35,651 bases of DNA from a virus. Every line of letters begins with the position of its first letter. Position 1 is the first letter of the stretch. Under the pieces are notes generated by a model, which saw nothing but the letters and a program-made list of their open reading frames with translations, was not told the DNA's origin and made no database searches. This document shows, piece by piece, positions 3,944 through 34,983 of the stretch. The position numbers and the translations under genes are program-made. The stretch lies in IMG/VR virus record IMGVR_UViG_3300025115_000034, positions 1 to 35,651 of that record, one strand, 5' to 3'.

Positions 3944-6900
3944 TTATTCTGTTTTATTATTTTGTGAATTAATAGCTGCCCCTGTTGCTATTGCAGCTGG
4001 AACTAAACCAAAAGTATTTATTATTTTTTTTGTTTTACCATCTACTATAAACCCAACTTTTACATTCAATGGTTTGCCTATTCCTAGGGCTTTTCCAACT
4101 TCTATATTACCTATTGGTTCTGCTATTTTATCTATTATTTTACCTGTTATTGTATTAACTCCGCTTTTACCTTTAAATGGTTGTAAATCCCATATATCAT
4201 TAGCAAATATCTTGTAATTACCATCAGGAAGTTTATTTACTTCCCAATGAAATCCACCCATAGTACCAAACATATCTTTGTCACTATCAGGTATTATCCA
4301 TGAATCTCCTTTTTTATACATATCATCAGCAGCAATCATTTTCATTCTAGTCTTTCCATTTTTTTCTAATGACTTAATAGCATCTAAATATTCATCAAAT
4401 CTACTTTCTATACGATTTGTATTCATGAAATCCTTCTTAATAGTATAAATAACATCATTCTTAGAAGTAGTCAATTCACTAATGTCATACAATGGATGTT
4501 TAGTTTGAGGTTTTCCTAAATACATATCCCATGTTGCATATCTATTAGATACTGCATCAAAATATAAAGGTTCTCCATCTTTAGTAATAAGTCTTCCCTT
4601 ATCCCTAATGTCAATCGCTTCTTTAAGTGATTTAGTCTTTGTTATTTTAGGTTGTGGAGGAATGGGATAAAATACTTTAGATTCTAAAACCTCTTTATTT
4701 TCTTTAAAAAGTAGCCTTTGTACATTTTCTATGTGTTCTTGTTCTTTTAACCATTCTTCTTCTGTTTTATATAGTGGATTCTTACCATCAAATATAGCAC
4801 CTTTGACATCTTTAAATTTAGAGCCTGTAATGTTATGCCCAGCAACATCTCCATATCCCCAAGGTTCAATTCCCTTTCTTATAGGTTCTTTCCATGGCAA
4901 ATTTGGAGTTTTTTGAGATTTTACAATTCCTTTTTCAACTAACTCTTGTCTTAATTGCGATACTACATCATCTGTTTTATTTAAAACTTTACTTCCTGCT
5001 TTAGCAACATCTTCAACTACACCAACACCTTTAATTAAATTCTTACCTACTTTAAAAACACTTGGGATTTTACCCATAGCATCTAATCCTGGAATAGGTA
5101 ATGCCATTCCAATAACTGTATTACTAAAATTAGTAGCTTGCGCTTTACTTTCTCCCGTCAAATTAGGATACATCCACATACTATTAGGTGCAACGACATC
5201 TTTTCTTCTTAAATCTGTGGAAGGCAAGTCTATTTTAGATGTTGCATTGCGTGCCTGTTGTTCATAATATTTTCTATATTCTGAATCATTATCATATCTA
5301 TATCTATGGGGAGATGTACCATATCTTTTACTAAATTGTTCATCAGCTACAGCTATATCATCTTTTCCTTGTGGATTAAATCTTTGATATAATAAACCCA
5401 TTTTAGTAGCTTCATCTAACTCGGCATTTCTTTTTTTCAACCCTTCTTGTCTAAGCTGTTCTCTCCAACCTTTTTCATTAATTCTACTAATTGCTTCTCT
5501 ACCAACAGGATTATTAAATCTATCTTCTACATATTTATCAATATCAAAAGGATTTTCTTTTTCCCACTCTCGTTTATATTTTAACCATGTAGGAGCTTCT
5601 GCTGTTACAGTTACTTCTTTCAATTGAATTGTGTTGTTAGGATTAATTACAGGTTCTTCTGGATATAAACTACCATCTCCAGCATAATCAGCCATAACAG
5701 GAACTGCAGGTAATACTAATCCATGAGCAGCCATTATTTGACCACTACCTCTTGTAAAACTAAATCCATCTTTACCAAGTTTAATATCTACACCCCCTTG
5801 TGCGTGAGAAGGATAGCCTTTTAAATCTTTTACTACTTCCCATTTAGAACCTTTAGTAAAATTAGAACCTCTACCTCCCATTTTAGCACAAGGTTTACCT
5901 TCTTCATCAGTATAAGTTATTTCAGATTCATTAATAGTATTTAATCCCATTGCAGAATATACAGCATTAGCTAACTCAGGATTAGATTCAAATAGTTCTG
6001 ATACTCCTGGTTTGATACTATCTTGTTTTAACTGATATGCATTCTCTTCTTTTGGAGAAATTTTTAAATCTAATTTAGCTAAATTAGAACTTAAAATATC
6101 GTTAGCAGCTATTGCGTATGGATCAGTAGTTCCTTTACTGAAAAATGACTTAATAAATTCTATAAGTTTTGATAACCAAGTAGTAGATTGTTTTACAAGT
6201 CTATCAGACATTAGATCTGTAGATCCTGTTATTTTATCAGATATCAGTTTACCTATAGCCTCATCAATAAATTGTTGCTCAGTAGTATATAAATCTTTAT
6301 ATTTTTCTTTTACTTGAATATATTGTGGATAATTTACAATATCTGTAGCCATCTTAAGATATAATGCTGAATCTTTAGGTAATAAGTGTACATAAAAATG
6401 AGCTGCTTCTTCAGGTAATGTTTTTAAATTTAATTTACCATCTGCTAAATCTATAGTCATTTGTGTTAATCTTGCTACAGCATTAGCTCCTTCTATTTCA
6501 TTTCCAAATCTATCAGTTATAGCTTTTACAGAGTTTATTTTAACACCTATTGCATTTAAGAAATCAATAACATTATTGTTAATTTCTTCTGATAATTCTT
6601 TTATTTCCCCTTCATCTTCTAGTTGGAAAAGATTAGATGATAAACTAAACGGTAGTTCTCTTTGTGTATTATTAAAAGATTTATAATTTTCAAATCTCTT
6701 CATAAATGCAGATTTATCTGAAATATCTCCATCTAAAGTTCTAAATTTCCAACCTTTGGGAGCTAATATTGTTGTAGGTATACCTAATTTACTTCCAGCT
6801 TTAGCACCCGCCTCATCAAATCCAGTTTGACCACCTGTTCTAATAGATTCTATTTTTGTTTTTAATTTAGGAGATTCGATGATAGCTTTTAGTAACTCAT

Positions 6901-9900
6901 AAGTAAATTTATCAATTTGTTGTTGAGTATATTTACCTTTTAAAGTATAAATACCATTACCTGCTATATTAAGAGTTTTAGCATTTACAGAATTTAATTT
7001 AGAAACAATTGTATCTACTAATTTATCGTTTATTATAGGAAACCCTTCTTCTATTGGTACAGCTATGTATTTTTTACCTTGTTCTCTTACAACTTTTTTA
7101 GTTAATTTTTCTCCAGTAGATGCTTTATTATCTGTATCTTTACTTTCTGTAATATAGTTTGCAATAGCTATAGTTGCGTCAGCAGAAGCATTCTTTCTAG
7201 TTCTATCTGAATAATCACTACTTTTTGATTCTAGAAAATTTATAGGTGATTTAATTTCAGAACTAACCTGTTTATTAGTTGTTTCTGACGTAGTTGTTGT
7301 AATATCATAATTATTAGAAGGTAATACACTATTTATAATCGGTATGTTACCATAAGCCAAGAAATAATATTCCTTAAACCTCATACCATCACCTAATTTC
7401 TTAACAAGATTGTATTTGTAATATTTTTTTACTACACCTTTTTCATTAGTTTTTTGTATTATTTCAGGTTTTCCATGTTTGTATGATTTTTCAAATAACA
7501 ATACTTCTTTTCTAGGTCTAGCTCTTAATTTCTTCTTTTGTTTATATGTTTCAATGCTATCTACCAACCAGTAAGTTTTAAGAAAATCTCTTTTACCATT
7601 TTTACTATTTGCAAATACTTCTATATAATTTCTTTTTTCTTTAAGATTGTATGATATTTTAGGTACAATATCAGAGTTATTAGAATTGTTTTTATAAAAT
7701 TGTTTTTCAAATGATTCTAAGAAAGGTGTTATAGTACTATCGTATCCAATACTACTTAATACGTTATCCATCATCTTTACAAATGCTGTATTTGGTACAA
7801 GATTCATAAAATTAATATATGATGAACTTAACCCATTCTGTAGAAAAGCAAATTCTACAAGATCGTTTGCAAATTCTCTAACTTCTTTGTTGTCAGATTC
7901 TAATAATTCATCAAAGGATGCAACTAGATTATTAATATCGTCTACACTAAACCTATTATTAAATTTAGTTATGTAATCATAATCTCTAGACCTACCTAGA
8001 TTGTTTGCAAATTCAGATATAGCTGGTCTTAAAGCAATTAATAATTCGTTATCCTGTACAGATTTTATTTTACTAATTTCTAACAATCTCTTAGCAATAG
8101 ACTTCTCTCCTCTAAACATGTCTTTAAGTCTACTGTGCATTGCTTCATAAGTAGATGTGGCACTACTAGACTTATATTTATAAGAGTATAGGAAGTTTAA
8201 TAGTTCGTCAGATGCAGTATTTAATACTTTTTCTAAATCTCTTTGTTTAATATTAAAACTATTAAATTTATCTATAAATTTGGATTTAAAGAAGTTGTTT
8301 AATATAGGGTATTTTTGCATTAAAGAATAGTTCTTAAACATTTCTATAGCTTCAGTTTTTGCTAAGAATGGTTCTCTTAAGAAACTATTATTAATTAAGT
8401 TATTTAAATCATAAGGACTAAAAAATAATGTTTTTTCTAATGATTCTTTAGATAATAATTTAAGTTCTAATTCTTGTGGAGTTTTACCAAATTCTGCATC
8501 AGGTCTTGTTACAGAATTAAGTTTACCTAACATCCTACCAAAAAATTGATACATTAGGAAGTTATCTAATATTTGTATTTTTTGAGCAGCATTAGGTTTT
8601 TGAATTTGTTTAGATGTTAATGGTTTATAGTTATAATCTTTTATTTTTTTAAGTATTATTGAAGAATTTCTATTTTCAACAGGAGTTTCAAAATATTCTA
8701 TGACTGAAGCAGCTAATGTTTCTTCATAAGTAGTTGGAAGAATACCTTCTGATTTAGACCTGTTCCATACAGATAACATTTCTGTTACTATTTCGTTTTT
8801 ATGACCAAAGAATTTACTATGAAAGTCTTTTTCTTCATAAATGTTATGAAATGCAAATGTAGAATAAGATTTTTTAAACCTTAATAAATATTCTTTAACT
8901 ATAGGACTTCCAACAAATTTAGTTATTATATCTAAACCTGCAGGAGCTTTATTACCTACTCTGTTGAGAAATGCTATAATTGGAAATACTTCAGTTGTTG
9001 CATTAAGTTTAAATACGAATGGATCTTTTTCGGCATCTACGAAAGCTGATATAAATTCGGCTATATTGTAAGATATCTTTCTATTTTCTAAATCAGTTAA
9101 AAATCCTATTTTAAGGGATTCTGATTCATTTTTACCAACACCTTCTAAGAATATATTTACAAGAGAATTTAATGTTATAGGATGCTGTTGAGTTGTAGCA
9201 TGAGCTACAGAATGAACTGCAGATTGAGCAACACCCATAAGTGATTGCCAGAATACTTGAGCTTTATTTAAATTATACCATAGTTGAGTTATATTTTCAT
9301 AATTAGCAACATCCATTTTTTCAACATCAAAAACCTCATTGTAGTTGTTTTCAGCTAACTCTCTTAGATAGTTTGTTTCGTTTGGTCTTAATAAATCCTC
9401 AAATCTACTTACATCTAATATAGACGATATAGTTAATTCGTTTAGTCTATTAGTAATAGCATCTAAACTGTTTTGTTTTAATATAGGTAAATCTTCAATA
9501 GCTTTTGCTACATGTTCTTCAACTCTTACTGATTCTTCAGTATTTATTTCAATAGCTTCGTTGATATCAGATAGAAATCTTCTTTGAGCAGCAATATAAT
9601 TATATCTCTCTATAGATATACTTTCCCTTTCTTTTTGATTTTTAGCTTGTTTTTCTAACGTGTTATAATATTCTATTTTTTCTATGTATGATTGAAATTC
9701 CTCGGTTTTCTCAAGTTCTTTCTTAGTTTTATAGTTATCTTGAATAGTCTTATCTATCTCATTATAATAGTCTTTAATAATTTCTGCAGCATCTGTTCCA
9801 AGTAAAGTAATTAAATCAGAAAAATTACTATTCTTTAATAACTCTTTAGCCCTTTGTTTAACAGTTGAGTTTTCTTCTGTTAAAAATTCTTTATAAACAG

Positions 9901-12900
9901 GTCCTTTCCTAGTCATTTTAACACTCTTTAAATAAGAAGTTAATTTGTCAATATCAAAGTCAGAACCAGCTTTTACAACTATTTCATACGGAAGTATTAT
10001 TCTTTGACCAACATAAGTAGGTAAGAACTTTTTAATTTTCACTACCTCCATAGTATTTATATGTTGAGTAGGTATCCTGTTAGCTGTAAAAGTTAAAATA
10101 CGTTCATCAATTTCTCCTCTTTCTATTCTCTTGTTTAACTCTTCAATTCCACCTATTGATTCAACCCAAGGAATCCAATTTTCAGGTAACGGAACCATTA
10201 CTTCCATAGCTAATACTTTTCCATTTTCTACTCTATAGAATTTAAGAGATTCAGAATAAAGATAATTAGACTCTTGTACATACATTTCACCAGGAACTTT
10301 TCTTTTTATAACCTGGTTTTTAACAAGAGCATTAAGTACTTCTTTTATTTTGTTACCTGTTGTAAGTACATCGAATACTTTTTCTTTTGAATCTAATGCT
10401 AAATCTAACCCTTCAATTACATTCATAGGCATTAACCTTTGTACAAACATCTTAGTTAATGTATCTTTAAATATAGCTAATGATTCAGGAGTATCGTGTT
10501 TTAAAAAATATTCGCCTTCCTTATCAACCTTAAAACCTAACTCGTTTAATAATTTTACTTTATTTCTTATATAATATTCAGATAAAGTAGCTGTGTATTC
10601 TTCAGCTTTATCTTTTAAAGATTTATGTATTTCTAATATTTCACCTTTTGAGAATAGGTCAACAGTGTTTAATCTAACCAACTGTGAAGAATAAGTTACT
10701 TTTAATTTTTCTTCTGTTGCTATTTCTAACTGTAATCCGTAATCATCATAATATTGATATGTGAAAGAAGAATCCTTAGTTAAAAGAGATATAGTCTTAG
10801 TATCAGGATTATAAGTTTCATTTACTATTGCTTCAGCTTTTCTACTGTTGATATCAGATATAATATCAGTACCGGTATTAAGCATACTGAGAAACAGTTT
10901 GAAATTGTCATTATTATTAACTATTAAAGGGAATATAGGAGCTACAGACATCTTATTTATATCAATCGCAGCTACCGCTAAATTGTTAGCTAATACTCCA
11001 ACGCCTATGGGTTTAATAGGTGGTATTTGTTTTAAATCTTTTGTCTTTAATTCTTTCCCATTAAACATTGGGATAGTAGGAATAACTCCTTTAGTATGTT
11101 TATAAAATACTCCGTTTGGATCTGTGAAGACACTTTCACTAATATTATAGATTTCTTTATATTCTGGATTATTTAGTATCTTTATAGCTAACGTCTGCAT
11201 TTCCCACTGATAGGTTTTTTCTTGTCCGTCAGCCCAACTACCTTCACGTAAATGTACAGACCTGATAAAATCTAGAGTACCCCATGTTTGACCATCAGCT
11301 ACTTTTATTTTCTTATAATCGTTAGACACTTTCAGAGCATCTTTATTATCACTAGAAAACGAAATATTATTTACTGTGATTGCTTTAATTCTGTCAGTAT
11401 GTTCAATAGCATCAAATCTTTGATACTCTGTATTTAATTTATCAATTACTATTTTATCATTACTTAAATGTTTTCGTGTAGAAGCTATGCTTGATAAACG
11501 TTTATGAAAATCTACTGGTGTTTCATACATAGCTACGTCACCAATAACAAGTTTTAATTGCTCTTGACTACCAACAAAGTAATTATAAGTTAAAGCTAAT
11601 AGTAATTTATTCATACTATCAGCAGACATTATTCCTTTAGTACTCAGAGTTATATCTAAATACTTCTTGTCTTCTATTACTTCTCTACTAACCCCTGGTA
11701 CAATATAAGAACCATCACCTAATTTAATTATAATATTACTTTCTAAAAGACTTGTTCTATTTTTTTCTATTATGTTATCTATATATCTATCAAATATATA
11801 ATCTATTGTTTGTTGATTATAATCTATATATTTGTCAGTTAATGCTTGTAATTTAGTTAAGTCTTTTCTATTTGGTGATTTAGTTAATTTAGGACTACCT
11901 TCATCTTTTATAAACTGAGTTATAGTGGAAGCTGTTCTGTATTCTGCATCTATTTCTAGATCCTCTGGCTTTGTTATAATTAAAGTATCTTCCTTACCAT
12001 ATTCTTTATTTTGTAAAAACGAAAATACTCTAAGTTCTCTTGCATTCTTATTATAATTTCTCAAGTTTCTACCATATGCACCATTTTCAGTATAGTCCAT
12101 ATGTAAAGCTATAGATGTAATTACTTCGTCTCTGAGGTAATTATAAAGATCTTGTTTAAATACTTGTCTAGATATTTTTGAGCTATTTACAGGGCCCATA
12201 CTAAGAGTATATTCCATACCTCTGTTTCCTGCCCTCATTAAAGGAACTGCTCCCCTTAATACTGAGTCAACTATTGTTTTTTTATAATCGTGATGAGTTG
12301 TTTCTGTTATATCTAATCCTTTCCCATCTTCTGTTGTAGTACCACGAATTACATCTAGTTCTAACTTATTACCTGCTTGAGCAAGTTGGATATATTTACT
12401 ATTAGTAGAAAATAAACTACCTACAGTACCATTAAAAGGCATTATCTGTAATATACTAGGATGTATTTCACCTGTCTCTACAAAATGATTTAATCTATTT
12501 ACTATTTCAGATAAATGGGATTCTTTCGTTATAGAATATTCCATATTACCTTCTTGATTGAAATACATTAAATCTACATCATTCTCAATATTATCTGCTG
12601 ATTGTGCAAGTAATTTATTTAATTCTTTTTGATTTTCAAATACACGACTATCATATAATTCATTTAGTTCAAATACTTGTTTACCTGAAGCTTTCAAACT
12701 ATCTACCTCTAACCTTAAATATTTAAAATAAGCAAATACTTCATCATAATTAGATATATCTGCATTGTTGTCTGTTATCTCTATACCTAAATGATTTAAT
12801 ATTCTATTAGCTATTGGAAATTTAGCAGCACCGTAAGCTGCTTCCATAGATATGATATCCTTTTTAAGCTTGTCTATATTAAGTAAATATACACCATCGT

Positions 12901-15900
12901 TATAGGATATATAATCGCTAGACTTAGATCTAGCCATAGCTATTCCCTTATTTACCCATCTATTCTTTATTACTTCACTATCTGTTTTTGACAAAGGTTC
13001 AGCATAAGTTATAGTTCCATCGTTTTTAGTATTAGCTATACGTGGGTTATTTCTATTATTAGAAAACGAAGTATATAATTGAGTTAGTAATCTGAACTGA
13101 ACATTATTTAAATTAGAAATATCAAATACATATTTACCGTCTACTATATCTGTACTATATCCAAGTTTTTTAATTAAGTTAGAAAATTCTGGTTTTTTAA
13201 CAGCTAACTTTTCTAATTTCTCCAACATATGAGTTAAGCTAACTGACTTTGAAAGATGTCTTTGTAGTATATTAATAGATTTATTAAACTCTACAGTCAT
13301 GAGCATTCCGTAGTCACTAAGCTTTAATACAGCTTCTCTACCAGAAACTTTATCTTCATATGAAGGTAAACTACCAATTAATATTTTTATTCCATCAGGA
13401 AGTAATTCTTTAATCGAAACTTTATTGCTTTCTATATGATCTTGAGTATTTCTAGATACCTTATCATCCTCATCTAATTCTTCTCGAATATCTACTTTAT
13501 ATTGAGTTAAAAATAAAGCATGTTTTTGAACAAGCTCATCCCAATTACTTAATATTTTTTCATATATAGGTATCTGGTATGCAGGAATATCGCTAAGTTT
13601 TAAACTGTCTTCATACACCATAGTTTTTATAATTTCATAAATCATTGGTGCACTTTGCTCAATATTAAATATTGTATCAATGCCTGATTCAATATCTCCT
13701 GTAACTACCTTAAAAAAATGATAGTTTATATTCTTAATTGCTTGAAGAGTTTCTTTAGTAGATAAACCTTTTATTCTATTAAAGTCTGAGGTAGGTTTAT
13801 TTACTACATCTCCTATAGAGAATGTGTTTTGGTCTATATTTCTAAAAGCTAACTCGATAGCTGAGGTTTCCTCTTCTATATTGATTCCTAATAACTGATT
13901 AAATATACTTTTAATCGCATCCCATATTCTTTCAAAGAAATTCTTTTTAGCTGATTCTTTAGGAGAGAACTTATACTTTCTATTCTGTAACATATAGTCA
14001 CGAAAATCTTCAGCTAAAATCTCTTCTATTTGATTATCTGTTAATTCAGCTATACCTAATTCTTTTCTCTTTTCATTATATAGTTTAGTTCTTTCTGCAT
14101 CTGTTAAAAAGAACTGGCTCCATACGTGAAAAGCTTCGTGATAAATAGTTCCTTCTTCTGCTATATCTGAGATTAAAACTTTTCCTGCATGAGTTAGTCT
14201 ACCAAAAGCTTTTCCTTCTATAAGTCCTTTTACAATTTCTATAGGTAGATTAGGAAACTTTTGCTTAAACCAAGCCATCGTATTAGCTAAATCCTCTAAA
14301 GAGTAGTCTTTTTCTATTCTAGCAAATCTGTTATTTACTTTATCTCTGGCTTGCTTTTGTAATCTCCAAGCAGCTTCAGCAGCAAGTTGTTCTATTTCTT
14401 CTTGTGTCTCACCTGTCTTACCGTAGTATTTTCTATTAAGTTCTTTCATTTTCTCTGTAAGACCACCCCAATATTCCCACATAGCATCAATTTCTTGTTG
14501 CTCGGTAATACCTGTTTTAGCAGCAGACGGAATTTCAGTTTTATTGCTACCTGGTACAGGAACAGCTTTACTTTCAGGAATATCTACTTTTTTAGACTGT
14601 GCTGGTTTAACTTCTGTTGTTGTTTTCTCAACAGCATTTACCTTATGCCCTATTAAAGTTATTTGTGCCCCAGGTATATCAAAAGATACACTCTTACCTT
14701 CTGCAGGATGTCTTTCTCTTAAAACACTTGTTACAGCTTCGTCAACGTGTTTAACTCCATACCAAAGACCAATAGCCTCACCCTCTAATTCTGGAAAGTC
14801 TTTATTTTTTTGATCAGCTATTACATTATGTAGTATATTTTCACCATCAAAAGCTACATATGCTACCATTGTTTTACTTTGTGCAGGATTATTAGTTTTT
14901 TCAAATACTATTTCTACCTTAACAATACTTGGTGATTTTAAGGTAACTCCTTCGGTAGCTTCTGTAGTTTTAGACTCAGTTGTTTTTTTAGATCTTGATA
15001 CATCTGGTTCAGCAACTTCTTTGAACCCTGTTTGTGATATCTCTGGTATTGTTTCAGCTTCTCCACTTAAAGCCTCATCGCCACGCATTCTAAGCTTTAC
15101 AGATTGATTGATATATTGTGGATTCTTAGCAAGTAAGAAAGAGGAACCTTCTTTAGATTTAGGAGCAGGTGAAAGCTGAACAGTTCCCTTAGAGGGGTTT
15201 CTTCCTTTTTTGGAAGACTGAGTAGTATCATTAAATAAGAAAGACTTATAACCACCTTCTTTTGCTGGCCATATAACAGCAGATAATTTTCCTTTACTAT
15301 CAACTTTATAAGAAATATAATCTTGTTTAGTAGAGTTTTCTAGTGCGTTCTTATCAAAGTTCCAATATTTGTTAGATAGAAAAGCTTTAAATGCGTCTAA
15401 GTTTCTACCTGCAATTAAGTCTTCTATAGATATAGTATCTTGTCCAAATACTACTCTATCAAATTCATTAAGTATAGGTTCACCAGTCTCATCTACTTTT
15501 TTTATAATTAATAATCTATGCTTATCGTCTCCTTTATTATGATATAGTGCTTCTTTTAAGAAAGAATAAACTGCCTCTCTGTCAGGATTCTTCTTATCTA
15601 CAACATATCTAAATAAGTTTATTATATCATTAACAGATTCAGTTTCTCCCAGTGTTTTTGGTTTAACTGTTTCTAATCTATTATTATGATACATATATAA
15701 GAAACCATTAAATACAGGATGGTGTACACCAGATACGTATCTAACGGACATTTTTAAATCTTTACCATCAGTTGATACTTCGTCTTCAGATTTAATTGAT
15801 TCTATGAAGAAACTTACATCAGATATATTCTTATTTATAGCTTTCTCAACATCTGTTTCTTCTCTAGTTTCTACTTTTTTACCAGGCGAAACACTAGATA

Positions 15901-18900
15901 TATCTAATATAAGAGGATCTTTAGATAACTGAGATCTGAATACTTTATAATCCTCTATGGCTTTAGCCATAATAACATCAACTTCACTATTAATGCGTTG
16001 AATTAATTCTTCACCTACTAAATCTTTAGTGGCGGGATCAGCCTTTAGTTTCTCAACTATTTGTAATTTTACTTTTTTAAATGTAAACCTATCGTGTCCA
16101 CCTATTGTTTTTTCTGTAGCATCTGGCAGAGATGTATAAAGTATCTCTTTTTTATTTTTCTTATCTACAAAAGGATTACCGTATTTATCTGTCATTAAAT
16201 ACAGATTACCTTCTTTAACTATAAGTTTTATATCGCTTCTGGCAGTATTCTCTAACTCTATCCCTTTTTTATTATCGCTAGCTTTTACAGCTTGTATTTG
16301 TTCGTAGGTCATTAATACTCCACCACCTACATGAAACTTAACCTTATCTTTAACGAACTTTTTCTCTGAACCTACTTGATCGTAAGTCATTGTTTTAAAG
16401 GAATACCTACTATGTTTTAAATTTTTAGGATTCCTTAAATGTGCAAAATTATTTATGAATACAAACAATCTGGCTACATCATCATTAGTTGCAGCGTCTT
16501 CTTGGTTAGACTGAGAATATAAGAATGATTTCCATCCTAAAGCCATATCAAAAGGATGTTTAGGGCTAAACTCCCAAGCTCCCAGTCTATCATCAATAGA
16601 CTGTCTCATGTTCTCAAACATTTTCTCAGGACTTATAGTAGCCTCTACATCTTTACCTACTAAACTCTCAATGTCTACGTTTCTAGGTTCTACAATCCTC
16701 TCATATACTTTGAGAAACAAATCCCTCTGTCTTCTTTTTAAAAGATGTTGTTTTCTTGATTCATCAAGTATCTGTTGATAATTATCCTCAGCTGCTTCAA
16801 ATCCAGCTAAATCCCTTAATTTTCCATCAAGTATTCTTTCTGCATTTTCTCTACCAGCAAGTAAAGGATCTATAGTTTCAGCAGGAAGACTATCTAAGAA
16901 ATCCATAAAATTCCCTTTAAACTTTCTTTCTACTAATTGTTCTATCCTATCTTGTATTACGTTTGTTATTACAATAGATTTTTCTTCTTCAGTTAAAAAT
17001 TCAATACCTAAAGCTTTATCTGATAAATCAATACCTAATGCTTTACCTATACTGGTGTTATATCCTTTAAGTAATCTATGTATATGTACAAGATACTTAG
17101 TTATTTCTTCAATAGCTTTTTGAGAAATATTTATTCTTTCTTCTGCAAAAACTTCTTCTTTTTGATAACTATCAATTAAAGTATTGAGAGAATTTAAATA
17201 TTCACCTGGCTCTATTTTTAATGTTTTAAAATCTTCTGTAACTTGATTTCTTCTATCTCTTAATTCTCTAACTCTTTCTCTTAATTTCTTTTGGTTGTTA
17301 TCAAGTTTTTTAATTTCTCTTTCTATTTCGGTTTTAGTTTTGTATATTCTTACTACAGTATTTTTTTCCTTTTTACTACCGACATAAAATTTTCTCTCTG
17401 TACCTTTTTCTGTTAACAGATTGTTTTTGTGTTCTTTAACTATTTTTTTAAGAGATTCTTTTAAATTGGAAATAGTTTCAGTATTCTCTTTTATTTGAGA
17501 TGTTAGAGTATCTATATGTTCTCTATAGAAGGATAACGCATTCTCATAGTTCTTTTTAATAGCCCTCTCCTGATTAGAGGTTTTAGCTTCAGCTGCAGTA
17601 CGTACAGTCTCTACAGAAGTAACTTTAAATATACCACCTCTTAATTGCTTTTTATTATTATCTTTGTCTGTATAATCTACAGTTCCTATAGTTATAGTAT
17701 CATCACCATTTAAAAAGTCAGTAGTACTATTTAAACTATTCTCTTTTAAATTAAGTACTTCTCTAAGGTTTAAGTTTCCAGCATTATTTTTATTACCTAC
17801 TTGGAATATTTTACTACCAGTAATAGAATTACCATCAGGTGATGTACCTTCAAAATTTACTCTTATATAACCCCTATGTCTTATACTCATGGTTTTAGTA
17901 CCACCTTCAAGCATAAGGTTTTCATCTTCTATATGATCTTTGAATAATTTCTCTAATTTAGCACTAGAGAAACCTTTAGATTCGTTTTCTTTTTCCTGAT
18001 TAGCAGCTCCTTGTTCACTCTGTTTTCTAAGCTCTAACTGTTCTTTTTCATACTGATCATAGTCTTTCTGTTGTTTTTCAAGATCATATAAATCTGTCAA
18101 TTCGTCAAGTGATTCTTTATATCTTTCAGTATATTCTTTAAGATTAGCTAAAACTCTATCTATAGTTAGTTTTTGTTGTTTATCGTATTGATCTGTCTTG
18201 AGAGACTCTTGATAAGAATTATTTAAATCATCAAGTAATTGTTGGTCAATGTTGTCTGTAGAACTTGATATTTTGTTTTTAGATATATCAGATAAATCTT
18301 TTCTTAATTTTTCTACTCTCGTCTTAAAGAACTCTAAGTTATTTTTATGCGATAACTTATTATTCATTACAGTTGAACTAAAATGTTTAAATAAGTCAGA
18401 ATTCTTTTTATCGTATTTAAGATTAAAATTAATATCGTGAGTATCATAAATATCCTCTACGATTTCTCTATACCTCTCAGCTTTATCTAATAATTTCTTT
18501 TTTATTTCTTCAATATACTTAGTGGTAGTTTCTGTCTTTCCACCATTTTGAGTATCAATACTCTTTGCTTCTGTCTCTGCTAAATGATTAATATGTTGTT
18601 TTAATACCTCTATACCACCTTCTACAGTAAGATACGATAACATATAATCAAAATGTATCTGATCCATTATAGCTTCAAAACCTTCTTCATTCCCCAACAT
18701 CTGATAAAGCGATGCTAGTTCTTTTATCATGGTCTTGTTTAAATCTATTATTGCTCCAGCAGCAACTTTAGTAGGATCTACTTGGTATTCACCGTTTACA
18801 AATACAGGAACTTCGTTTCCATTTTCATCAGTAGTGGTTTTTATAACATCATTAACTTTAGAAACATAACTTAAATAGTTATTTTTTAATAACTTATGGT

Positions 18901-20206
18901 ATTCTGATTGTAATTTTTTAATTTGTTTGTCTTGTTTTATACCACCAATTGATGCCATACCTCCACCTAAGATAGAACCTAATACGACACTTTTCCAGAA
19001 ATCGGTTTTATTATCACCTAATAAGTTACCTAAATATGCTCCAACTGTTTCATCTATATCAGCAATAGGATCGTATCTTTCTCCCCTTTCTGCTGCGGCT
19101 TTAGCTGCTTCTGATATAGTGTATTGCAAACCTTCTTCAAAAAAACCTTCCCAAAATATACCAACTAAAGGATGTTTAGCCACATCCCAAGCATTTTTTA
19201 ATTTTGATATTCTAGGTAACTGATCAACAATTTCTCCTGTTGGTTTTATTACTCCTTTTAATGCTTGAGCAGCTGTACCTCTGCCTGCTGATGCTGATGC
19301 TGAAGCTAATTTAGCTGCTTTAAATCCGTTAAATAACCATTTTTGTGCTAAGATGTTTGGACCTAATAATATTGCAGCATTGCCTCTAAATACAGCAGTT
19401 GCCGCTTTAGATGCACCTTCTACATCATCAGGGAACTGTTTAATATATGAATCATATGTTTCAAGAGCTTCTACCGAAGCTTCGTATCCAGTGTTAAGAG
19501 TGGCTGCTGTCCAATTATCTATTTGTCCAGCAAGTTTTCTAGAGGCTTGTGCAGCTAATCCTGGCTTAGCCAATTTGGACATAGGAGATACAAATTTTGA
19601 AACTTTTGTTCCAACACTTAAAGCTCTTACTAACTGTCCTGGTGCCAACATTCCAATTAAAAATCCTACTCCATCAGCTCCTTCGTTTGCCCAAAACGCC
19701 GAACTACCTAGGTTTTCCCATAAGTTTCCATTAGCTACTGACTTTGGAGTGTAAATCGGCAATTTTTCTTTAATCTCTTCATCTAAAGCACCTACCATAG
19801 CTAACCAACCATTGTTGAAAGAATCCCTCATAGATTCTGCAGTAAAGCCTTGTTTACCCCATTCTACAAAAGCTTCAACTATACCTGGTAGTTTGGCTGC
19901 TTCCATAGCAGCTTTAGCTGCTGCTCTAGGTACAAAATATGCCCATCTCTCTGCTGCGCTTTGTTGAGCAGCTAATTCTTCATTTAGGTCAACCCCTATT
20001 GCAGGATAGTTCTCTCCTAACCTCCTAACCATCTTCTCATGTGAAGCAGGAGTTGAAACATTAATAGGAAAGTCAAATCTATTTGAATCTTTAGTTTCTT
20101 TGTTAAATTCTAAATACTCATTACCGTTAGCATCTTTTTTAACAAATTTACTAAGATCAGGTCTAGATATAGGATCTTGACCTAAAACAGAATTATTATC
20201 AGCCAT
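3944..20206 (-). CDS. Giant virion RNA polymerase polyprotein with zincin and SLOG-like domains
   Basis: 5420 residues from ATG at 20206. Domains by eye: hydrophobic Gly/Ala-rich segments around 155-200 and 405-425; charged coiled coils at roughly 430-760 and 885-1050; Thr/Pro/Lys-rich linkers near 1690-1750 and 1856-1905; a zincin HEAFH at 2023-2027 with E2066 as likely third ligand; an RNAP core with VADGQTW (2969), lysines K3065 and K3085, NRIPTQH (3376-3382) and DFDID (3416-3420); a SLOG-like module about 4330-4520 (LNIAGNGIYTL, then GGQTG at 4458); a second zincin-like EEAAH (4599-4603); and a C-terminal module from about 4776 with the VMADYAGDGSL tag (4837-4847). Known: crAss-like phages package a single-chain RNAP with a DxDxD motif that transcribes early genes. 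Inferred: an ejected protein, perhaps cut into parts. The frame is continuous over 16.3 kb with no frameshift. Domain edges are approximate. Confidence 0.88.
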   Translation of the reverse strand: MADNNSVLGQDPISRPDLSKFVKKDANGNEYLEFNKETKDSNRFDFPINVSTPASHEKMVRRLGENYPAIGVDLNEELAAQQSAAERWAYFVPRAAAKAAMEAAKLPGIVEAFVEWGKQGFTAESMRDSFNNGWLAMVGALDEEIKEKLPIYTPKSVANGNLWENLGSSAFWANEGADGVGFLIGMLAPGQLVRALSVGTKVSKFVSPMSKLAKPGLAAQASRKLAGQIDNWTAATLNTGYEASVEALETYDSYIKQFPDDVEGASKAATAVFRGNAAILLGPNILAQKWLFNGFKAAKLASASASAGRGTAAQALKGVIKPTGEIVDQLPRISKLKNAWDVAKHPLVGIFWEGFFEEGLQYTISEAAKAAAERGERYDPIADIDETVGAYLGNLLGDNKTDFWKSVVLGSILGGGMASIGGIKQDKQIKKLQSEYHKLLKNNYLSYVSKVNDVIKTTTDENGNEVPVFVNGEYQVDPTKVAAGAIIDLNKTMIKELASLYQMLGNEEGFEAIMDQIHFDYMLSYLTVEGGIEVLKQHINHLAETEAKSIDTQNGGKTETTTKYIEEIKKKLLDKAERYREIVEDIYDTHDINFNLKYDKKNSDLFKHFSSTVMNNKLSHKNNLEFFKTRVEKLRKDLSDISKNKISSSTDNIDQQLLDDLNNSYQESLKTDQYDKQQKLTIDRVLANLKEYTERYKESLDELTDLYDLEKQQKDYDQYEKEQLELRKQSEQGAANQEKENESKGFSSAKLEKLFKDHIEDENLMLEGGTKTMSIRHRGYIRVNFEGTSPDGNSITGSKIFQVGNKNNAGNLNLREVLNLKENSLNSTTDFLNGDDTITIGTVDYTDKDNNKKQLRGGIFKVTSVETVRTAAEAKTSNQERAIKKNYENALSFYREHIDTLTSQIKENTETISNLKESLKKIVKEHKNNLLTEKGTERKFYVGSKKEKNTVVRIYKTKTEIEREIKKLDNNQKKLRERVRELRDRRNQVTEDFKTLKIEPGEYLNSLNTLIDSYQKEEVFAEERINISQKAIEEITKYLVHIHRLLKGYNTSIGKALGIDLSDKALGIEFLTEEEKSIVITNVIQDRIEQLVERKFKGNFMDFLDSLPAETIDPLLAGRENAERILDGKLRDLAGFEAAEDNYQQILDESRKQHLLKRRQRDLFLKVYERIVEPRNVDIESLVGKDVEATISPEKMFENMRQSIDDRLGAWEFSPKHPFDMALGWKSFLYSQSNQEDAATNDDVARLFVFINNFAHLRNPKNLKHSRYSFKTMTYDQVGSEKKFVKDKVKFHVGGGVLMTYEQIQAVKASDNKKGIELENTARSDIKLIVKEGNLYLMTDKYGNPFVDKKNKKEILYTSLPDATEKTIGGHDRFTFKKVKLQIVEKLKADPATKDLVGEELIQRINSEVDVIMAKAIEDYKVFRSQLSKDPLILDISSVSPGKKVETREETDVEKAINKNISDVSFFIESIKSEDEVSTDGKDLKMSVRYVSGVHHPVFNGFLYMYHNNRLETVKPKTLGETESVNDIINLFRYVVDKKNPDREAVYSFLKEALYHNKGDDKHRLLIIKKVDETGEPILNEFDRVVFGQDTISIEDLIAGRNLDAFKAFLSNKYWNFDKNALENSTKQDYISYKVDSKGKLSAVIWPAKEGGYKSFLFNDTTQSSKKGRNPSKGTVQLSPAPKSKEGSSFLLAKNPQYINQSVKLRMRGDEALSGEAETIPEISQTGFKEVAEPDVSRSKKTTESKTTEATEGVTLKSPSIVKVEIVFEKTNNPAQSKTMVAYVAFDGENILHNVIADQKNKDFPELEGEAIGLWYGVKHVDEAVTSVLRERHPAEGKSVSFDIPGAQITLIGHKVNAVEKTTTEVKPAQSKKVDIPESKAVPVPGSNKTEIPSAAKTGITEQQEIDAMWEYWGGLTEKMKELNRKYYGKTGETQEEIEQLAAEAAWRLQKQARDKVNNRFARIEKDYSLEDLANTMAWFKQKFPNLPIEIVKGLIEGKAFGRLTHAGKVLISDIAEEGTIYHEAFHVWSQFFLTDAERTKLYNEKRKELGIAELTDNQIEEILAEDFRDYMLQNRKYKFSPKESAKKNFFERIWDAIKSIFNQLLGINIEEETSAIELAFRNIDQNTFSIGDVVNKPTSDFNRIKGLSTKETLQAIKNINYHFFKVVTGDIESGIDTIFNIEQSAPMIYEIIKTMVYEDSLKLSDIPAYQIPIYEKILSNWDELVQKHALFLTQYKVDIREELDEDDKVSRNTQDHIESNKVSIKELLPDGIKILIGSLPSYEDKVSGREAVLKLSDYGMLMTVEFNKSINILQRHLSKSVSLTHMLEKLEKLAVKKPEFSNLIKKLGYSTDIVDGKYVFDISNLNNVQFRLLTQLYTSFSNNRNNPRIANTKNDGTITYAEPLSKTDSEVIKNRWVNKGIAMARSKSSDYISYNDGVYLLNIDKLKKDIISMEAAYGAAKFPIANRILNHLGIEITDNNADISNYDEVFAYFKYLRLEVDSLKASGKQVFELNELYDSRVFENQKELNKLLAQSADNIENDVDLMYFNQEGNMEYSITKESHLSEIVNRLNHFVETGEIHPSILQIMPFNGTVGSLFSTNSKYIQLAQAGNKLELDVIRGTTTEDGKGLDITETTHHDYKKTIVDSVLRGAVPLMRAGNRGMEYTLSMGPVNSSKISRQVFKQDLYNYLRDEVITSIALHMDYTENGAYGRNLRNYNKNARELRVFSFLQNKEYGKEDTLIITKPEDLEIDAEYRTASTITQFIKDEGSPKLTKSPNRKDLTKLQALTDKYIDYNQQTIDYIFDRYIDNIIEKNRTSLLESNIIIKLGDGSYIVPGVSREVIEDKKYLDITLSTKGIMSADSMNKLLLALTYNYFVGSQEQLKLVIGDVAMYETPVDFHKRLSSIASTRKHLSNDKIVIDKLNTEYQRFDAIEHTDRIKAITVNNISFSSDNKDALKVSNDYKKIKVADGQTWGTLDFIRSVHLREGSWADGQEKTYQWEMQTLAIKILNNPEYKEIYNISESVFTDPNGVFYKHTKGVIPTIPMFNGKELKTKDLKQIPPIKPIGVGVLANNLAVAAIDINKMSVAPIFPLIVNNNDNFKLFLSMLNTGTDIISDINSRKAEAIVNETYNPDTKTISLLTKDSSFTYQYYDDYGLQLEIATEEKLKVTYSSQLVRLNTVDLFSKGEILEIHKSLKDKAEEYTATLSEYYIRNKVKLLNELGFKVDKEGEYFLKHDTPESLAIFKDTLTKMFVQRLMPMNVIEGLDLALDSKEKVFDVLTTGNKIKEVLNALVKNQVIKRKVPGEMYVQESNYLYSESLKFYRVENGKVLAMEVMVPLPENWIPWVESIGGIEELNKRIERGEIDERILTFTANRIPTQHINTMEVVKIKKFLPTYVGQRIILPYEIVVKAGSDFDIDKLTSYLKSVKMTRKGPVYKEFLTEENSTVKQRAKELLKNSNFSDLITLLGTDAAEIIKDYYNEIDKTIQDNYKTKKELEKTEEFQSYIEKIEYYNTLEKQAKNQKERESISIERYNYIAAQRRFLSDINEAIEINTEESVRVEEHVAKAIEDLPILKQNSLDAITNRLNELTISSILDVSRFEDLLRPNETNYLRELAENNYNEVFDVEKMDVANYENITQLWYNLNKAQVFWQSLMGVAQSAVHSVAHATTQQHPITLNSLVNIFLEGVGKNESESLKIGFLTDLENRKISYNIAEFISAFVDAEKDPFVFKLNATTEVFPIIAFLNRVGNKAPAGLDIITKFVGSPIVKEYLLRFKKSYSTFAFHNIYEEKDFHSKFFGHKNEIVTEMLSVWNRSKSEGILPTTYEETLAASVIEYFETPVENRNSSIILKKIKDYNYKPLTSKQIQKPNAAQKIQILDNFLMYQFFGRMLGKLNSVTRPDAEFGKTPQELELKLLSKESLEKTLFFSPYDLNNLINNSFLREPFLAKTEAIEMFKNYSLMQKYPILNNFFKSKFIDKFNSFNIKQRDLEKVLNTASDELLNFLYSYKYKSSSATSTYEAMHSRLKDMFRGEKSIAKRLLEISKIKSVQDNELLIALRPAISEFANNLGRSRDYDYITKFNNRFSVDDINNLVASFDELLESDNKEVREFANDLVEFAFLQNGLSSSYINFMNLVPNTAFVKMMDNVLSSIGYDSTITPFLESFEKQFYKNNSNNSDIVPKISYNLKEKRNYIEVFANSKNGKRDFLKTYWLVDSIETYKQKKKLRARPRKEVLLFEKSYKHGKPEIIQKTNEKGVVKKYYKYNLVKKLGDGMRFKEYYFLAYGNIPIINSVLPSNNYDITTTTSETTNKQVSSEIKSPINFLESKSSDYSDRTRKNASADATIAIANYITESKDTDNKASTGEKLTKKVVREQGKKYIAVPIEEGFPIINDKLVDTIVSKLNSVNAKTLNIAGNGIYTLKGKYTQQQIDKFTYELLKAIIESPKLKTKIESIRTGGQTGFDEAGAKAGSKLGIPTTILAPKGWKFRTLDGDISDKSAFMKRFENYKSFNNTQRELPFSLSSNLFQLEDEGEIKELSEEINNNVIDFLNAIGVKINSVKAITDRFGNEIEGANAVARLTQMTIDLADGKLNLKTLPEEAAHFYVHLLPKDSALYLKMATDIVNYPQYIQVKEKYKDLYTTEQQFIDEAIGKLISDKITGSTDLMSDRLVKQSTTWLSKLIEFIKSFFSKGTTDPYAIAANDILSSNLAKLDLKISPKEENAYQLKQDSIKPGVSELFESNPELANAVYSAMGLNTINESEITYTDEEGKPCAKMGGRGSNFTKGSKWEVVKDLKGYPSHAQGGVDIKLGKDGFSFTRGSGQIMAAHGLVLPAVPVMADYAGDGSLYPEEPVINPNNTIQLKEVTVTAEAPTWLKYKREWEKENPFDIDKYVEDRFNNPVGREAISRINEKGWREQLRQEGLKKRNAELDEATKMGLLYQRFNPQGKDDIAVADEQFSKRYGTSPHRYRYDNDSEYRKYYEQQARNATSKIDLPSTDLRRKDVVAPNSMWMYPNLTGESKAQATNFSNTVIGMALPIPGLDAMGKIPSVFKVGKNLIKGVGVVEDVAKAGSKVLNKTDDVVSQLRQELVEKGIVKSQKTPNLPWKEPIRKGIEPWGYGDVAGHNITGSKFKDVKGAIFDGKNPLYKTEEEWLKEQEHIENVQRLLFKENKEVLESKVFYPIPPQPKITKTKSLKEAIDIRDKGRLITKDGEPLYFDAVSNRYATWDMYLGKPQTKHPLYDISELTTSKNDVIYTIKKDFMNTNRIESRFDEYLDAIKSLEKNGKTRMKMIAADDMYKKGDSWIIPDSDKDMFGTMGGFHWEVNKLPDGNYKIFANDIWDLQPFKGKSGVNTITGKIIDKIAEPIGNIEVGKALGIGKPLNVKVGFIVDGKTKKIINTFGLVPAAIATGAAINSQNNKTE
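5665..5701 (-). repeat. 37-bp near-identical repeat, copy 2 (encodes VMADYAGDGSL)
   Basis: Partner of 3708-3744, with 36 of 37 bases the same. It lies in the C-terminal module of the giant gene (residues 4837-4847), about 15 residues before LKEVTVTA. Near-identity in AT-rich, fast-changing phage DNA suggests a recent copy or recombination between the two genes. Confidence 0.85.
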
Positions 20207-20222
20207 AAAATTTAATATATAA

Positions 20223-22391
20223 TTATTTACCTAACAATCTGGTTAATTCAGCTAAAAGATTCTTTTTACCATATAACTCTATATCTTTTCCTTCTGATTT
20301 ATATGGTATCCATTTATCATTTACTTTTACTTGTAAAGTATAAAACTCTTGCCCATCTCTTACTTTAAATGACCATTTAAAATCCTCTAAGTCTTTTTCT
20401 GTAATAAGGGTAGTATTTCTTTCTTTTACAGGACGTGTTGAAAATACTTCCAAGTTTATTAAATTAGCTACTTTACCTTTGTCTGTTGCTGCTCTATGTA
20501 AGTCTTGTAATAAAGCATCTTGAATAATTTCAGGGTTCCCTACTTTAGCAGCAAATTCAATCCACCATCTTATTCCTTCTTTTGTTGCTTTTGTTGGATC
20601 AAACGTAAAATCCATTGATTCAGGGGTACCTTTTCCACTAGGAACTCCAGATACAAGTTTTATAATAGCTAATCCTTCACTGTTAGTTTCAAGAGCTATT
20701 GATATATTAGGAACACCTTCTGGTGATGTTCCAGCTTTTGTTAGAAAATTAGCAACTGCATCATCGTCCCAAAGCCCTGAGTCTTTTTGATTTTTGTTTT
20801 TAAACTCTTTTTGGGTAGGTGTCATCCAAGTTCTATTTGATGTAATATTTTCTACTAATGCCCCAATTTCTGCTCTTGGTATACTTATTGACGGCACACT
20901 TATACTAGATGAAATACTTCTACCTTTAGATAATATATCATTTATAGGTTTTTCTATATTTGTATAATATCCAAAGTTTGGATCACTATACCATTTATTA
21001 AATTCATGTTTAATTATTGTAAGTTCTGAACTATTCCATTCTTCTTCAGCTTGCATTCTTAAATTTGGATCTTTAATAGTACTAAACACTGGAACATATT
21101 GTTCAGAAACCCTATCTACACTAAATGTTAAACCTGGGTATCTAAGCTTAAAATCATGTTCTCTATTTTTTTCTACTTCATACCCTGGTCTAGATTTTTC
21201 TATTTTTTCTGTTCTAGATGTATCTTTAATAACTTCTTTAACAAATTTCCTTAAATTTCTATCAAATCCCAATGCTCTTCTGTTTAGGGTAGTGTTATTA
21301 TAATATTTTACTAATTTTTGAAATATTTGTTGTGTTTCTTCTGGAGTAATGGAAGGTACAATAGAAGCTAAATTATTGCCTAAAACTTCAACCCCCCTAT
21401 TCAATATTTCTTGTGATTGCTCTGAATCTATTATTGAGTCAACTACTGCTTTTGTGGCAATCATATCATCACTTAATTCTCCACTCGCAGATTCCTCATC
21501 AAATCTTTTATTAAAAGACTTTATGTCTTGTACAGCATATGGTATATTTTGTACAGTATTACTTACTTCTGTAAATCTTGCTTCTGGATCTTTTGGTCCA
21601 CTAGTATCTGTTTCGGGCATTTTCATCTTTTGATAAGATGTTCTATATTCTCCAACAAGATTCTGTCTTGCTGCATTCATAGCTGCTTCTCTAATAATAG
21701 GATTATCCATGTATTTTTCAAAAGCAGTACCTTTCATCCAACTATCAAGATAGTCTTGACCTTCTTTCTGTAGCCACGCTTCTGACGCATCAGCATCTTT
21801 AAATCCATATTGTTCTCCTAACTCAGCAAAATATTCAGTTTGGCCCGTAGCTGGGTTTAAAACTCCAACTGATTTATTTATTGGTTTAACCATTGAAGTA
21901 GCATGCTCCTTAGCTGCTGCACCAACCATTTGCATTAAATCTCTGGTATCTAAAGGAGTATATTCGTTTAATGCTGCTTGATTATAGTAGCTAGCTGACA
22001 TGGGGTTATGTTCAGAAAAATAAAATGAACCTAACCTTCTACGATCTTCTTCTGCTTTACTAATTAATTCTTTTTTTCTTTCATTGTATGTCCAGAAAGG
22101 ATCTTTTCTAATGTTAGATATTTCCCTAGCTAACTCTTTTGTATAAGAAGAACTAGCTCTATCAAAATTATTCTTTTTTTCTAATTCTCTAAGTCTTGTA
22201 GAAAACTGATCTAATATTTTATTCTTAGTAGCAGTATCTCCTGCACCTATTGTAGGTATCAGAGAATATTGATCTTGTATTTGTAATTCTCTAGCAAGAT
22301 TATCATCATAAGCTTTTTGATACTCATTTAAAGTACCTTGAAGAGCTTGAGTGTTCGTAGGAACAAACTGAGGTATATAAGGAACTGGCAT
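20223..22391 (-). CDS. Internal virion (cargo) protein, 722 residues
   Basis: Starts with ATG at 22391 (MPVPYIPQFVPTN), one base after the TAG stop of the gene before it, and ends 16 bases before the giant gene. The N-terminal QFVPTN..LQ..L..YQ..YD pattern is one I know from the openings of internal proteins in crAss-like and related gut phages. Residues 20-130 are charged and helical, with many Lys/Glu/Arg. No transmembrane helix, signal peptide or catalytic motif stands out. The C-terminal ~70 residues look like a small beta-rich domain (VRDGQEFYTLQVKVNDKW). Its place between the lysin, the pilot-like protein and the RNAP gene indicates a capsid- or tail-stored protein ejected with DNA. That role is inferred from position only. 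Confidence 0.75.
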   Translation of the reverse strand: MPVPYIPQFVPTNTQALQGTLNEYQKAYDDNLARELQIQDQYSLIPTIGAGDTATKNKILDQFSTRLRELEKKNNFDRASSSYTKELAREISNIRKDPFWTYNERKKELISKAEEDRRRLGSFYFSEHNPMSASYYNQAALNEYTPLDTRDLMQMVGAAAKEHATSMVKPINKSVGVLNPATGQTEYFAELGEQYGFKDADASEAWLQKEGQDYLDSWMKGTAFEKYMDNPIIREAAMNAARQNLVGEYRTSYQKMKMPETDTSGPKDPEARFTEVSNTVQNIPYAVQDIKSFNKRFDEESASGELSDDMIATKAVVDSIIDSEQSQEILNRGVEVLGNNLASIVPSITPEETQQIFQKLVKYYNNTTLNRRALGFDRNLRKFVKEVIKDTSRTEKIEKSRPGYEVEKNREHDFKLRYPGLTFSVDRVSEQYVPVFSTIKDPNLRMQAEEEWNSSELTIIKHEFNKWYSDPNFGYYTNIEKPINDILSKGRSISSSISVPSISIPRAEIGALVENITSNRTWMTPTQKEFKNKNQKDSGLWDDDAVANFLTKAGTSPEGVPNISIALETNSEGLAIIKLVSGVPSGKGTPESMDFTFDPTKATKEGIRWWIEFAAKVGNPEIIQDALLQDLHRAATDKGKVANLINLEVFSTRPVKERNTTLITEKDLEDFKWSFKVRDGQEFYTLQVKVNDKWIPYKSEGKDIELYGKKNLLAELTRLLGK

Positions 22392-26557: not shown

Positions 26558-29500
26558 TTATGTCTTAGTGGGCCTGTAGTGTGTCATTACATCGTATAAC
26601 ACAATCTTCTTATTATTATTATTTTGATATGTCAATTTAGCTCTAACATATGTATCTACCATCCTATATATCTCTAACCCTACATCTTCCGGTAATAACC
26701 ATGTTCTCCATTTACGAGATATCTTTTGTATAGTGTTATCTATAGATAAAGGTTTAGTAAACGTAAGATAAGTGTTAGATGTTTCTAACGTATTAAACGT
26801 TTCGTTATTTAATAACGCTTCAGTACTATCATAAACATCTGATCTTAGTTCAAGAACATCATAAGAGTTAACTAATTCTCCATTAGGGTTTATTATTAGA
26901 TCAATAGATGTGTTATCTAACACCCCATAAAATTCACCTCTAACTCCTTCATTATGTAAATAACATTCGTTATCTTTTATACTATAAAAAGAATGGTTTA
27001 GTGGAAATATCCAATCTGGTGTAAATGACTGCCTACCTAAAAATACTCGTTGATACTCATCGTAAACAATAGTATTATTTTTAGAAGAACCATCTGACAC
27101 ATAAAAAAATACTCTCTTCTTTTGAGAATCATAACCTGTTTTAACATTGTTTATTGAAGTATAAGATTTTAATAAACTCTTTATTCCGTTTACTTCCGAT
27201 ATAGGTACATCTCCTTCTCCAGTAAACATGTATATTATTTTGTTACTTCTGTCTATATAATAGAAACTCTTATCACCAAGAACCACATCGTTGAATCCTT
27301 GGAAACCAGAACTAGTTGTAAGATAGTCATATCTTTCCAATACTGCGCCTGTACCAAGCACCAATTTACTTCTATTCATATCTGTTACTACAGACCTATC
27401 GTTAACAGCAATAAGAGATATGGCTTTATCCTGACCACAGAACAATTTATCTTGGTATGTAAATATGTTTCTTATAGGCCCATACTTAGGGTCTACTTCT
27501 ATAGTATTATTTAAATAGAGATTAGTCCAATTATCAAAATACTCATTATTTAATTTCTTACCTGTAGCTATAATCTGTACATCGTTAGAAGATATATTAT
27601 TTGAATCGAATATTTGACACTGTATAAGATTTGCATTAGCAGACGAAGAATAAACCTTATTATATCTATAGAGATTACCTACATCTGTTGGATAAGCTGA
27701 AGGATATTTGGCTATACCGTCTGATTCTAATTCCTGTAATTCAAATTTACCTGATACTCCATCAATATACTTTTGTGCTGGGTCTAATCTATAATTACAA
27801 TTTATTGTTGATTCTACACCAAGATGTACAGCTTGTATACACTTGTGGGTTGTACTATAGTCTGACGGTACCATTGATCTTAAATGTGTAAAATAAGATA
27901 TGAAACCATCCCCTTTATAACACGTAACATTACTAGTAGCTTTAGGGATATATTCCGAATAAGGTATTACCTGATTATAAGATCTGGATTCAAAAGTATT
28001 TCCATTATATTGAATATTAAACACATCTCTTACATAAGAACCAAGAATTAATCCATCAGTTCCAATATCAACAGGTATATTTGAAGAGGTACCAACAATA
28101 AAGGTTGATCCTTTCTGTCCAACATATGTTGGACTTGAAACCACATGCGCAATAACGTTTCTATAAGTTAAAGAGTTAAATTGTATATCTATTGGTGTTT
28201 GATATCTAATAGGTTCTATTTTACAATCGTTAACAGTTGTTAACGATGTTTCTCCAGAATGTCTTGCTCCAGTAGAAGATATTTTTAATTTGCTTCTTGC
28301 TGTATTCCATGTAGTACTTACAGTTACTGCTGCACTATATCTTCCTTCTATTCTAATTTTGTCACCTGTTATACAATTTATATTTTTATAAAACAACGAT
28401 TCTGGAGAAATCATCTCTAATAGATTAAGATATCTAGATATCCCTGAATCTTGTGCTCTTATCAACATCCCACTAACTGAATCAAAAGTAGATTGGATGT
28501 AAGGTCTAGCATAAGTACCAGGGCCAAAATTAAATGTAGGAGCAATAACTCCTCTAGCTAATATGCTTCTATCTTGTGGTTTTCTTTCACACCTGTAAAT
28601 TTGCCAACCTAATAATTCACTATCTGAAGGTAGGTTAGATATTGTTACTTTAGGAAATATGTATCTTCCCACATCTGCTGTTGGAATAGTTGTAATATCT
28701 GAATTAGTAGGAATCCTTAAATCACATATCCATTGAGGATTACTATATTGCATCTTAGTATTAAAGAATACAATGTATAATCTGTATACTTCTTCTCTAA
28801 TAGATGTTCTTTTGAAAGTATCTATCACACTACCAGAAAATGGTGTACTAATAGATGGTACATATGGATCACTGTTATCATCTATCTTAATATCTTCTGT
28901 TACAAAATCTACTGTTACATTTAATCCTTCTGCGCCTAAAGCAATACCATCAGATTTAAACTTATATTCGTATGCCGTATCACCGTCATTTTTAATATCA
29001 TTATATTCATTAATTCCGTCATGATCATAATCATAATTAGACCAGTCAGATACAATATTACTTATTGTTACATCTGGTTCACTATTGTCTTTTAGTACTG
29101 ATGATCCTGATGCAGCATCATAGTCAAATATAAATAATAAGTCAAACACACTACTAGCATCATCTATTGTAACGGCACCACTAAAATAATTTCCTGCTGT
29201 ATTAGTAGCTCTAAATGTTAAAGTATCTGTTTCTGAAGTATAGGTGATGTTTGTAAAGTTAGTATCTCCTGTTGAACTACTAAACGGGGTTCCAGAACTA
29301 TGTGTTCCGGATACTGCAGTAGGGCCTATATCTACTCCAACAAATGTAATATCTGTTAATATCGCACCAGCAGGAAGTTCAAAATAATCAGGGGTTTTAC
29401 CAGATATATCTGGAACTGTTACTTCTATAGTGTTGTTGGAAATATAAATCATATCTACACCATATGTACCTTTAGAAAAGTTTTCTCCAGTGTCAGTGTC

Positions 29501-34968: not shown

Positions 34969-34983
34969 AACTAAGCTTTTAAT

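Follow-up and report, generated by a model that had tools for sequence, protein, structure and literature searches.

A divergent virion RNA polymerase of the crAss-like kind predicted within a 5,420-residue phage protein

Cellulophaga phage phi14:2 carries in its virion the RNA polymerase (RNAP) that transcribes its early genes. This protein, gp66, is a separate 2,180-aa chain of solved structure (PDB 6VR4); gp66 and gp67—the latter a virion protein from a separate gene—owe their annotation to virion mass spectrometry. In crAss001, gp47, gp49, and gp50 are separate genes, with gp47 on the opposite strand; gp50 is a homologous RNAP (DFDVD at residue 1483), and a zincin lies at the C terminus of gp47. 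All three crAss001 proteins are virion cargo, and RNAP-associated cargo is believed to leave the capsid in a partly unfolded state and to regain its fold inside the host (PMC10172136). Fusions are also known. Among Suoliviridae, those of cr4_1 (4,491 aa), cr114_1 (4,272 aa), cr50_1 (4,774 aa), and cr118_1 (4,946 aa) are giant single genes upstream of a second large gene, and a review puts crAss-like RNAP genes at up to ~6,000 aa (PMC10136315). Thermus phage P23-45 gp96 is a 5,002-aa tape measure–RNAP fusion with a metallopeptidase and membrane segments; in P23-45 the fused virion RNAP has been proposed to be coupled to the entry of DNA, and such coupling is also suggested for fusions of the crAss-like and N4-related kinds (PMC10770324).

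Here we describe a giant gene in IMG/VR record IMGVR_UViG_3300025115_000034, analyzed over positions 1 to 35,651 (hereafter, the window). Nucleotide coordinates refer to the window and residue numbers to the giant protein (Table 1). On the grounds of homology, synteny, and predicted fold, residues 2640–3839 are very probably a crAss-like virion RNAP, predicted to act in early-gene transcription after injection. The closest solved relative, phi14:2 gp66, shares the predicted fold, the residues DFDID, R1322, K1012, K1027, K1065, and D962, and the gp66–gp74 neighborhood, whereas the window RNAP follows gp67-like and zincin parts within one chain and has a C-terminal extension. In the window, as in the Suoliviridae fusions, one giant gene lies upstream of another large gene, and cr4_1 and cr114_1 also hold zincin and RNAP in one chain; read with the standard code, these two contain in-frame stops, whereas the window ORF is free of them and a little longer. 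P23-45 gp96 likewise joins a two-barrel RNAP to a giant virion protein with a metallopeptidase, but its RNAP is N-terminal, flat, and clampless, carries DFDGD, and belongs to a long-tailed phage and to another branch of two-barrel RNAPs. The window protein is not of this type, with an N-terminal RNAP on a tape measure protein: Its core lies at residues 2640–3839 of 5,420. Novelty of the giant fusion was considered and rejected, given the 4,272–4,946-aa crassvirus fusions and the ~6,000 aa of the review (PMC10136315); with chains of similar size known, the surprise implied in the initial annotation at a 5,420-residue chain is weak. The window RNAP is a divergent addition to a known family, of the phi14:2 gp66 kind.

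Table 1. Features of the giant protein and its neighbors, in window coordinates
Feature	Position	Strand	Basis
Fused giant chain of 5,420 aa, predicted virion protein	3944..20206	-	ORF intact over 5,420 codons; homology map
Chain layout: gp67-like N-terminal part, zincin, two-barrel RNAP, SLOG domain, C-terminal extensions	3944..20206	-	
Residues 83-750, phi14:2 gp67 homologue	17957..19960	-	phmmer, gp67 residues 71-722, E=1e-23
Residues 1967-2422, zincin-like metallopeptidase region	12941..14308	-	HEAFH 2023-2027 = window 14126-14140
Residues 2640-3839, predicted RNAP core: first barrel, connector, second barrel, bridge helix	8690..12289	-	Profile, AlphaFold2, Foldseek
VADGQTW (2969-2975), first-barrel region	11282..11302	-	D2971 = gp66 D962; D in 68/68 ungapped rows
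K3065 = gp66 K1012, candidate active-site lysine	11012..11014	-	K in 70/70 ungapped rows
K3085 = gp66 K1027, candidate active-site lysine	10952..10954	-	K in 70/70 ungapped rows
K3123 = gp66 K1065, third near-invariant lysine	10838..10840	-	K in 70/70 ungapped rows
NRIPTQH (3376-3382), R3377 = gp66 R1322	10061..10081	-	R and P in 71/71 rows
DFDID (3416-3420), candidate metal-binding DxDxD	9947..9961	-	= gp66 D1361/D1363/D1365
Residues 3642-3674, 33-residue helix, bridge-helix candidate	9185..9283	-	AlphaFold2 secondary structure; gp66 alignment to ~1562
Residues 4325-4417, cpYpsA SLOG domain (PF12694)	6956..7234	-	E=2.2e-8, 34.4 bits, cut-off 26.2
Residues 4510-4749, additional domain, EEAAH at 4599	5960..6679	-	Matches part of L092/L037 ORF
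722-aa ORF directly upstream of giant gene, phi14:2 gp68 position	20223..22391	-	Position only; L001 ORF match 2.1e-8
Muzzle (tail tip) protein, phi14:2 gp71 homologue	26558..30646	-	6e-36, 4e-30; PHROG virion structural protein 2e-108
Tail ring/tubular protein, phi14:2 gp72 homologue	30648..31643	-	2.5e-13
IHF-like protein, phi14:2 gp73 homologue	31570..32184	-	5.3e-16
Structural protein, phi14:2 gp74 homologue	32150..32815	-	3.7e-8

Searched against phage genomes by tblastn, residues 2603–3935 matched 139 records, chiefly crAss-like and several annotated as RNA polymerase; the best match was cr108_1 (6e-16), and crAss001 gp50 was found at 3e-10. Profiles were required for comparison with known structures because a single-sequence phmmer search of the same residues against the PDB returned just spurious dUTPase matches (E ~0.4); the RNAP region is unrecognized by Pfam, NCBIfam, and PHROGs. 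A degenerate DNA pattern for GSDFD[IV]DK retrieved 120 stretches from IMG/VR (115 of them relatives by profile score) and was much more productive than a related-locus search from the single protein, which gave one locus. A 70-sequence profile matched 6VR4 at E=2.6e-232, spanning gp66 residues 578–1767. To rule out signal borrowed from gp66-like rows, we ran a clade-only profile (the window with loci L001 and L064), which had 6VR4 (5.6e-28) as its single PDB match up to E=10. Homology between the RNAP core and gp66 covers ~1,150 residues, with ~19% identity in the alignment. Aligned with phi14:2, crAss001, DAC15, cr4, cr111, and cr114, the catalytic positions fall in register, with RIPTQ followed by GSDFDID.

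The initial annotation had proposed a structure prediction for comparison with gp66. AlphaFold2 gave a confident model of residues 2640–3839 from 70 sequences (pLDDT 83.2, pTM 0.82), for which 6VR4 was the sole significant Foldseek match in the PDB (1.9e-32; TMq 0.64; 1,282 alignment columns). The subthreshold PDB rows, individually nonsignificant, were two-barrel RNAPs (AR9, P32 gp64, E. coli β′, Pol IV, and phiKZ), and the named matches among predicted viral structures (BFVD) were nearly all crassvirus proteins. From the fold match to 6VR4, the chain is predicted to contain two double-psi barrels, with D3416, D3418, and D3420 putatively clustered at a metal site. The second barrel with arginine and DxDxD, first recognized by eye, is placed consistently by the 6VR4 profile match, the gp66-register alignment, the predicted model, and Foldseek, and the proposed first-barrel region with VADGQ and two lysines aligns with gp66 D962, K1012, and K1027. 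The suggested bridge-helix sequence VAQSAVHSVAHATTQQH starts at residue 3659, not at about 3654 as first given; most of it lies inside the predicted helix 3642–3674, which by its length and alignment is probably the bridge helix.

The motifs themselves—NRIPTQH, DFDID, VADGQTW, K3065, K3085, R3377, and G3414—were found where the initial annotation had put them, in one intact minus-strand ORF. K3123 was missing from its list of lysines. Across the aligned family rows, D2971, K3065, K3085, and R3377 are near-invariant, and R3377 with DFDID is kept in over 100 related proteins from phages, the R-to-D spacing being 39 in 110 of 114. DFDID aligns exactly with gp66 1361–1365, bearing out the likeness drawn to crAss-like RNAPs. 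Invariance of DFD[IV]D among the pattern-fetched relatives is partly by construction, and glycine at the N458 position (G3414), present in 71 of 71 rows, should be read with the fact that most rows were fetched with a pattern containing that G. Conservation of R3377, D2971, K3065, K3085, and K3123 lies outside the fetching pattern and so does not arise by construction, and crassviruses found by tblastn, where no pattern was used, also carry DFDID, DFDVD, or DLDVD. Together with DxDxD, these five residues, kept through to gp66, provide a short list for mutagenesis.

The same conservation bears on whether the protein might be a decayed or repurposed RNAP relative that keeps the fold but has lost activity and serves an ejection or structural role only. 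Very high divergence, fusion to nonpolymerase domains, and a polymerase activity that is predicted only would all fit such a protein. All checked catalytic positions are nevertheless kept—three aspartates, R3377, three lysines, and D2971—and the ORF is intact through 5,420 codons, which leaves this reading improbable beside that of a crAss-like virion RNAP.

For the crAss-like RNAP preferred here, the relation to bacterial β′ is one of shared order, R...P and then DxDxD, with DFDID in register with DFDGD. R3377, at the position of β′ R425, is a true shared feature, as the initial annotation held, and its reading of a glycine as the counterpart of N458 extends throughout the family rows. The β′ sequence N458-A459-D460-F461-D462-G463-D464 is absent; the window and its family show G-S-D-F-D-[IV]-D, with G where β′ has N458 and DFD[IV]D where it has DFDGD. 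Sequence similarity to β′ is not significant: PF00623 (Rpb1 domain 2), the β′ family profile that includes NADFDGD, had no window match at E≤10 (control genomes matched 14/14), and hhalign against E. coli β′ aligned 28 residues around DFDGD, DFDID in register, at a nonsignificant E=0.21. The description "β′-style NRxPTxH" over-reads the motif. The family consensus at this site is [YF]RIPTQG; N precedes R in 3 of 71 aligned rows, those of the window and the two relatives closest to it, and H at 3382 occurs in the window alone among aligned relatives. Because N and H lie outside the family consensus, they are no sign of special kinship to β′, an idea we rejected given also the absent PF00623 match, and from sequence the resemblance of N3376 and H3382 is best read as coincidence. 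Separate acquisition of a β′-like RNAP from bacteria, with NRxPTxH retained, could appeal to that resemblance and to the hhalign pairing of DFDID with DFDGD; it is highly improbable given that nearly all relatives lack N and H, that PF00623 has no match at E=10, that the profiles find gp66 and no cellular β′, and that a tree, albeit one without cellular sequences, nests the window among phage RNAPs.

NRIPTQH occurs once in the 5,420-aa protein and D.D.D twice, the other copy being DSDKD at 5307. Among 2,000 shuffles, R.PT followed 30–45 residues on by D.D.D appeared in 0.25%, and no shuffle had R.PT with DFD.D after it; homology is stronger evidence for an RNAP than these shuffle statistics. 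An unrelated structural protein carrying the motif by coincidence has a vanishingly small chance of being correct: DxDxD by itself turns up often (each shuffle of the giant protein is expected to hold 1.3), but the long homology to a solved RNAP and the fold match to 6VR4 stand against it. A motif call made by eye, R...P with DFDID further along a very large phage ORF, is confirmed as marking what very probably is a genuine virion RNAP of the crAss-like family.

A tree built from 31 RNAP cores unites the window, L001, and L064 with full support, on a side of 15 uncultured sequences (97/98) that contains none of the sampled named Steigviridae or Suoliviridae. The tree has an arbitrary root and no cellular sequence, leaves out the Intestiviridae, Crevaviridae, epsilon, and zeta groups, and omits cr108_1 because its ORF stops inside the motif; we therefore make no claim of a new family. 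The family, most of whose known members come from gut phages, gains a divergent uncultured lineage. In cr108_1 (locus L003), the RNAP ORF ends in the catalytic motif (...AKAGSD) at ~16578, with the next ORF ~290 bases on. Interruptions of the DxDxD region have been reported in other crassviruses, and this one looks like an intron.

The window is colinear with phi14:2, with homologues of gp74, gp73, gp72, and gp71, further ORFs, and then the giant gene replacing gp67 and gp66. By this synteny, the window belongs to the tail/cargo gene block of crassviruses. Judged by its relatives, the window protein is most likely packaged in the virion, ejected, and active in early transcription. The giant chain, with the polymerase behind the gp67-like part and the zincin, would be housed in the cargo zone of the capsid, thread its way down the tail on infection, and refold in the cytoplasm. 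The first barrel (~2960–3130) would then provide the conserved lysines and the second (~3300–3440) R3377 and the magnesium-binding D3416, D3418, and D3420, and the polymerase would transcribe early phage genes while DNA enters. The window protein leaves the known working of crAss-like virion polymerases unchanged.

The zincin HEAFH lies ~1,400 residues ahead of DxDxD. A profile of the zincin region gave 46 matches, most of those listed having HExxH and lying, in fused chains, 800–1,500 aa before DxDxD; many share one chain with the RNAP, and the crAss001 counterpart is the gp47 C terminus. In L036, L079, L035, L016, L092, L037, and L019, the region is kept upstream of the RNAP without HExxH, which suggests that peptidase activity was lost there. 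The counterpart of residues 4510–4749 in L092 and L037 is part of a separate downstream ORF.

The YpsA-like SLOG domain is the one unusual detail of the chain. Among the loci compared, it occurs in the window and L001 only, L001 being the closest relative compared; it follows the RNAP in the window and precedes it in L001 (residues 1956–2162). Speculatively, one polypeptide of this uncultured lineage could deliver the whole injection and takeover set of ejection part, zincin, RNAP, and SLOG domain, with the SLOG domain arriving with the polymerase as an early counter-defense against nucleotide immune signals of the cADPR type, a suggestion we consider unlikely.

Other ORFs in the window add minor observations. 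The 1,013-aa tail-block ORF at 23409–26450, unmatched among the loci compared, contains an endolysin-like stretch (PHROG 2649, 1.6e-5). A truncated 899-aa ORF downstream of the giant gene (2–2698) carries a zincin-like HEFIH motif and a weak exonuclease-like match, and SAM methyltransferase-like and glycosyltransferase-like ORFs occupy the distal end of the tail block (34456–35649).
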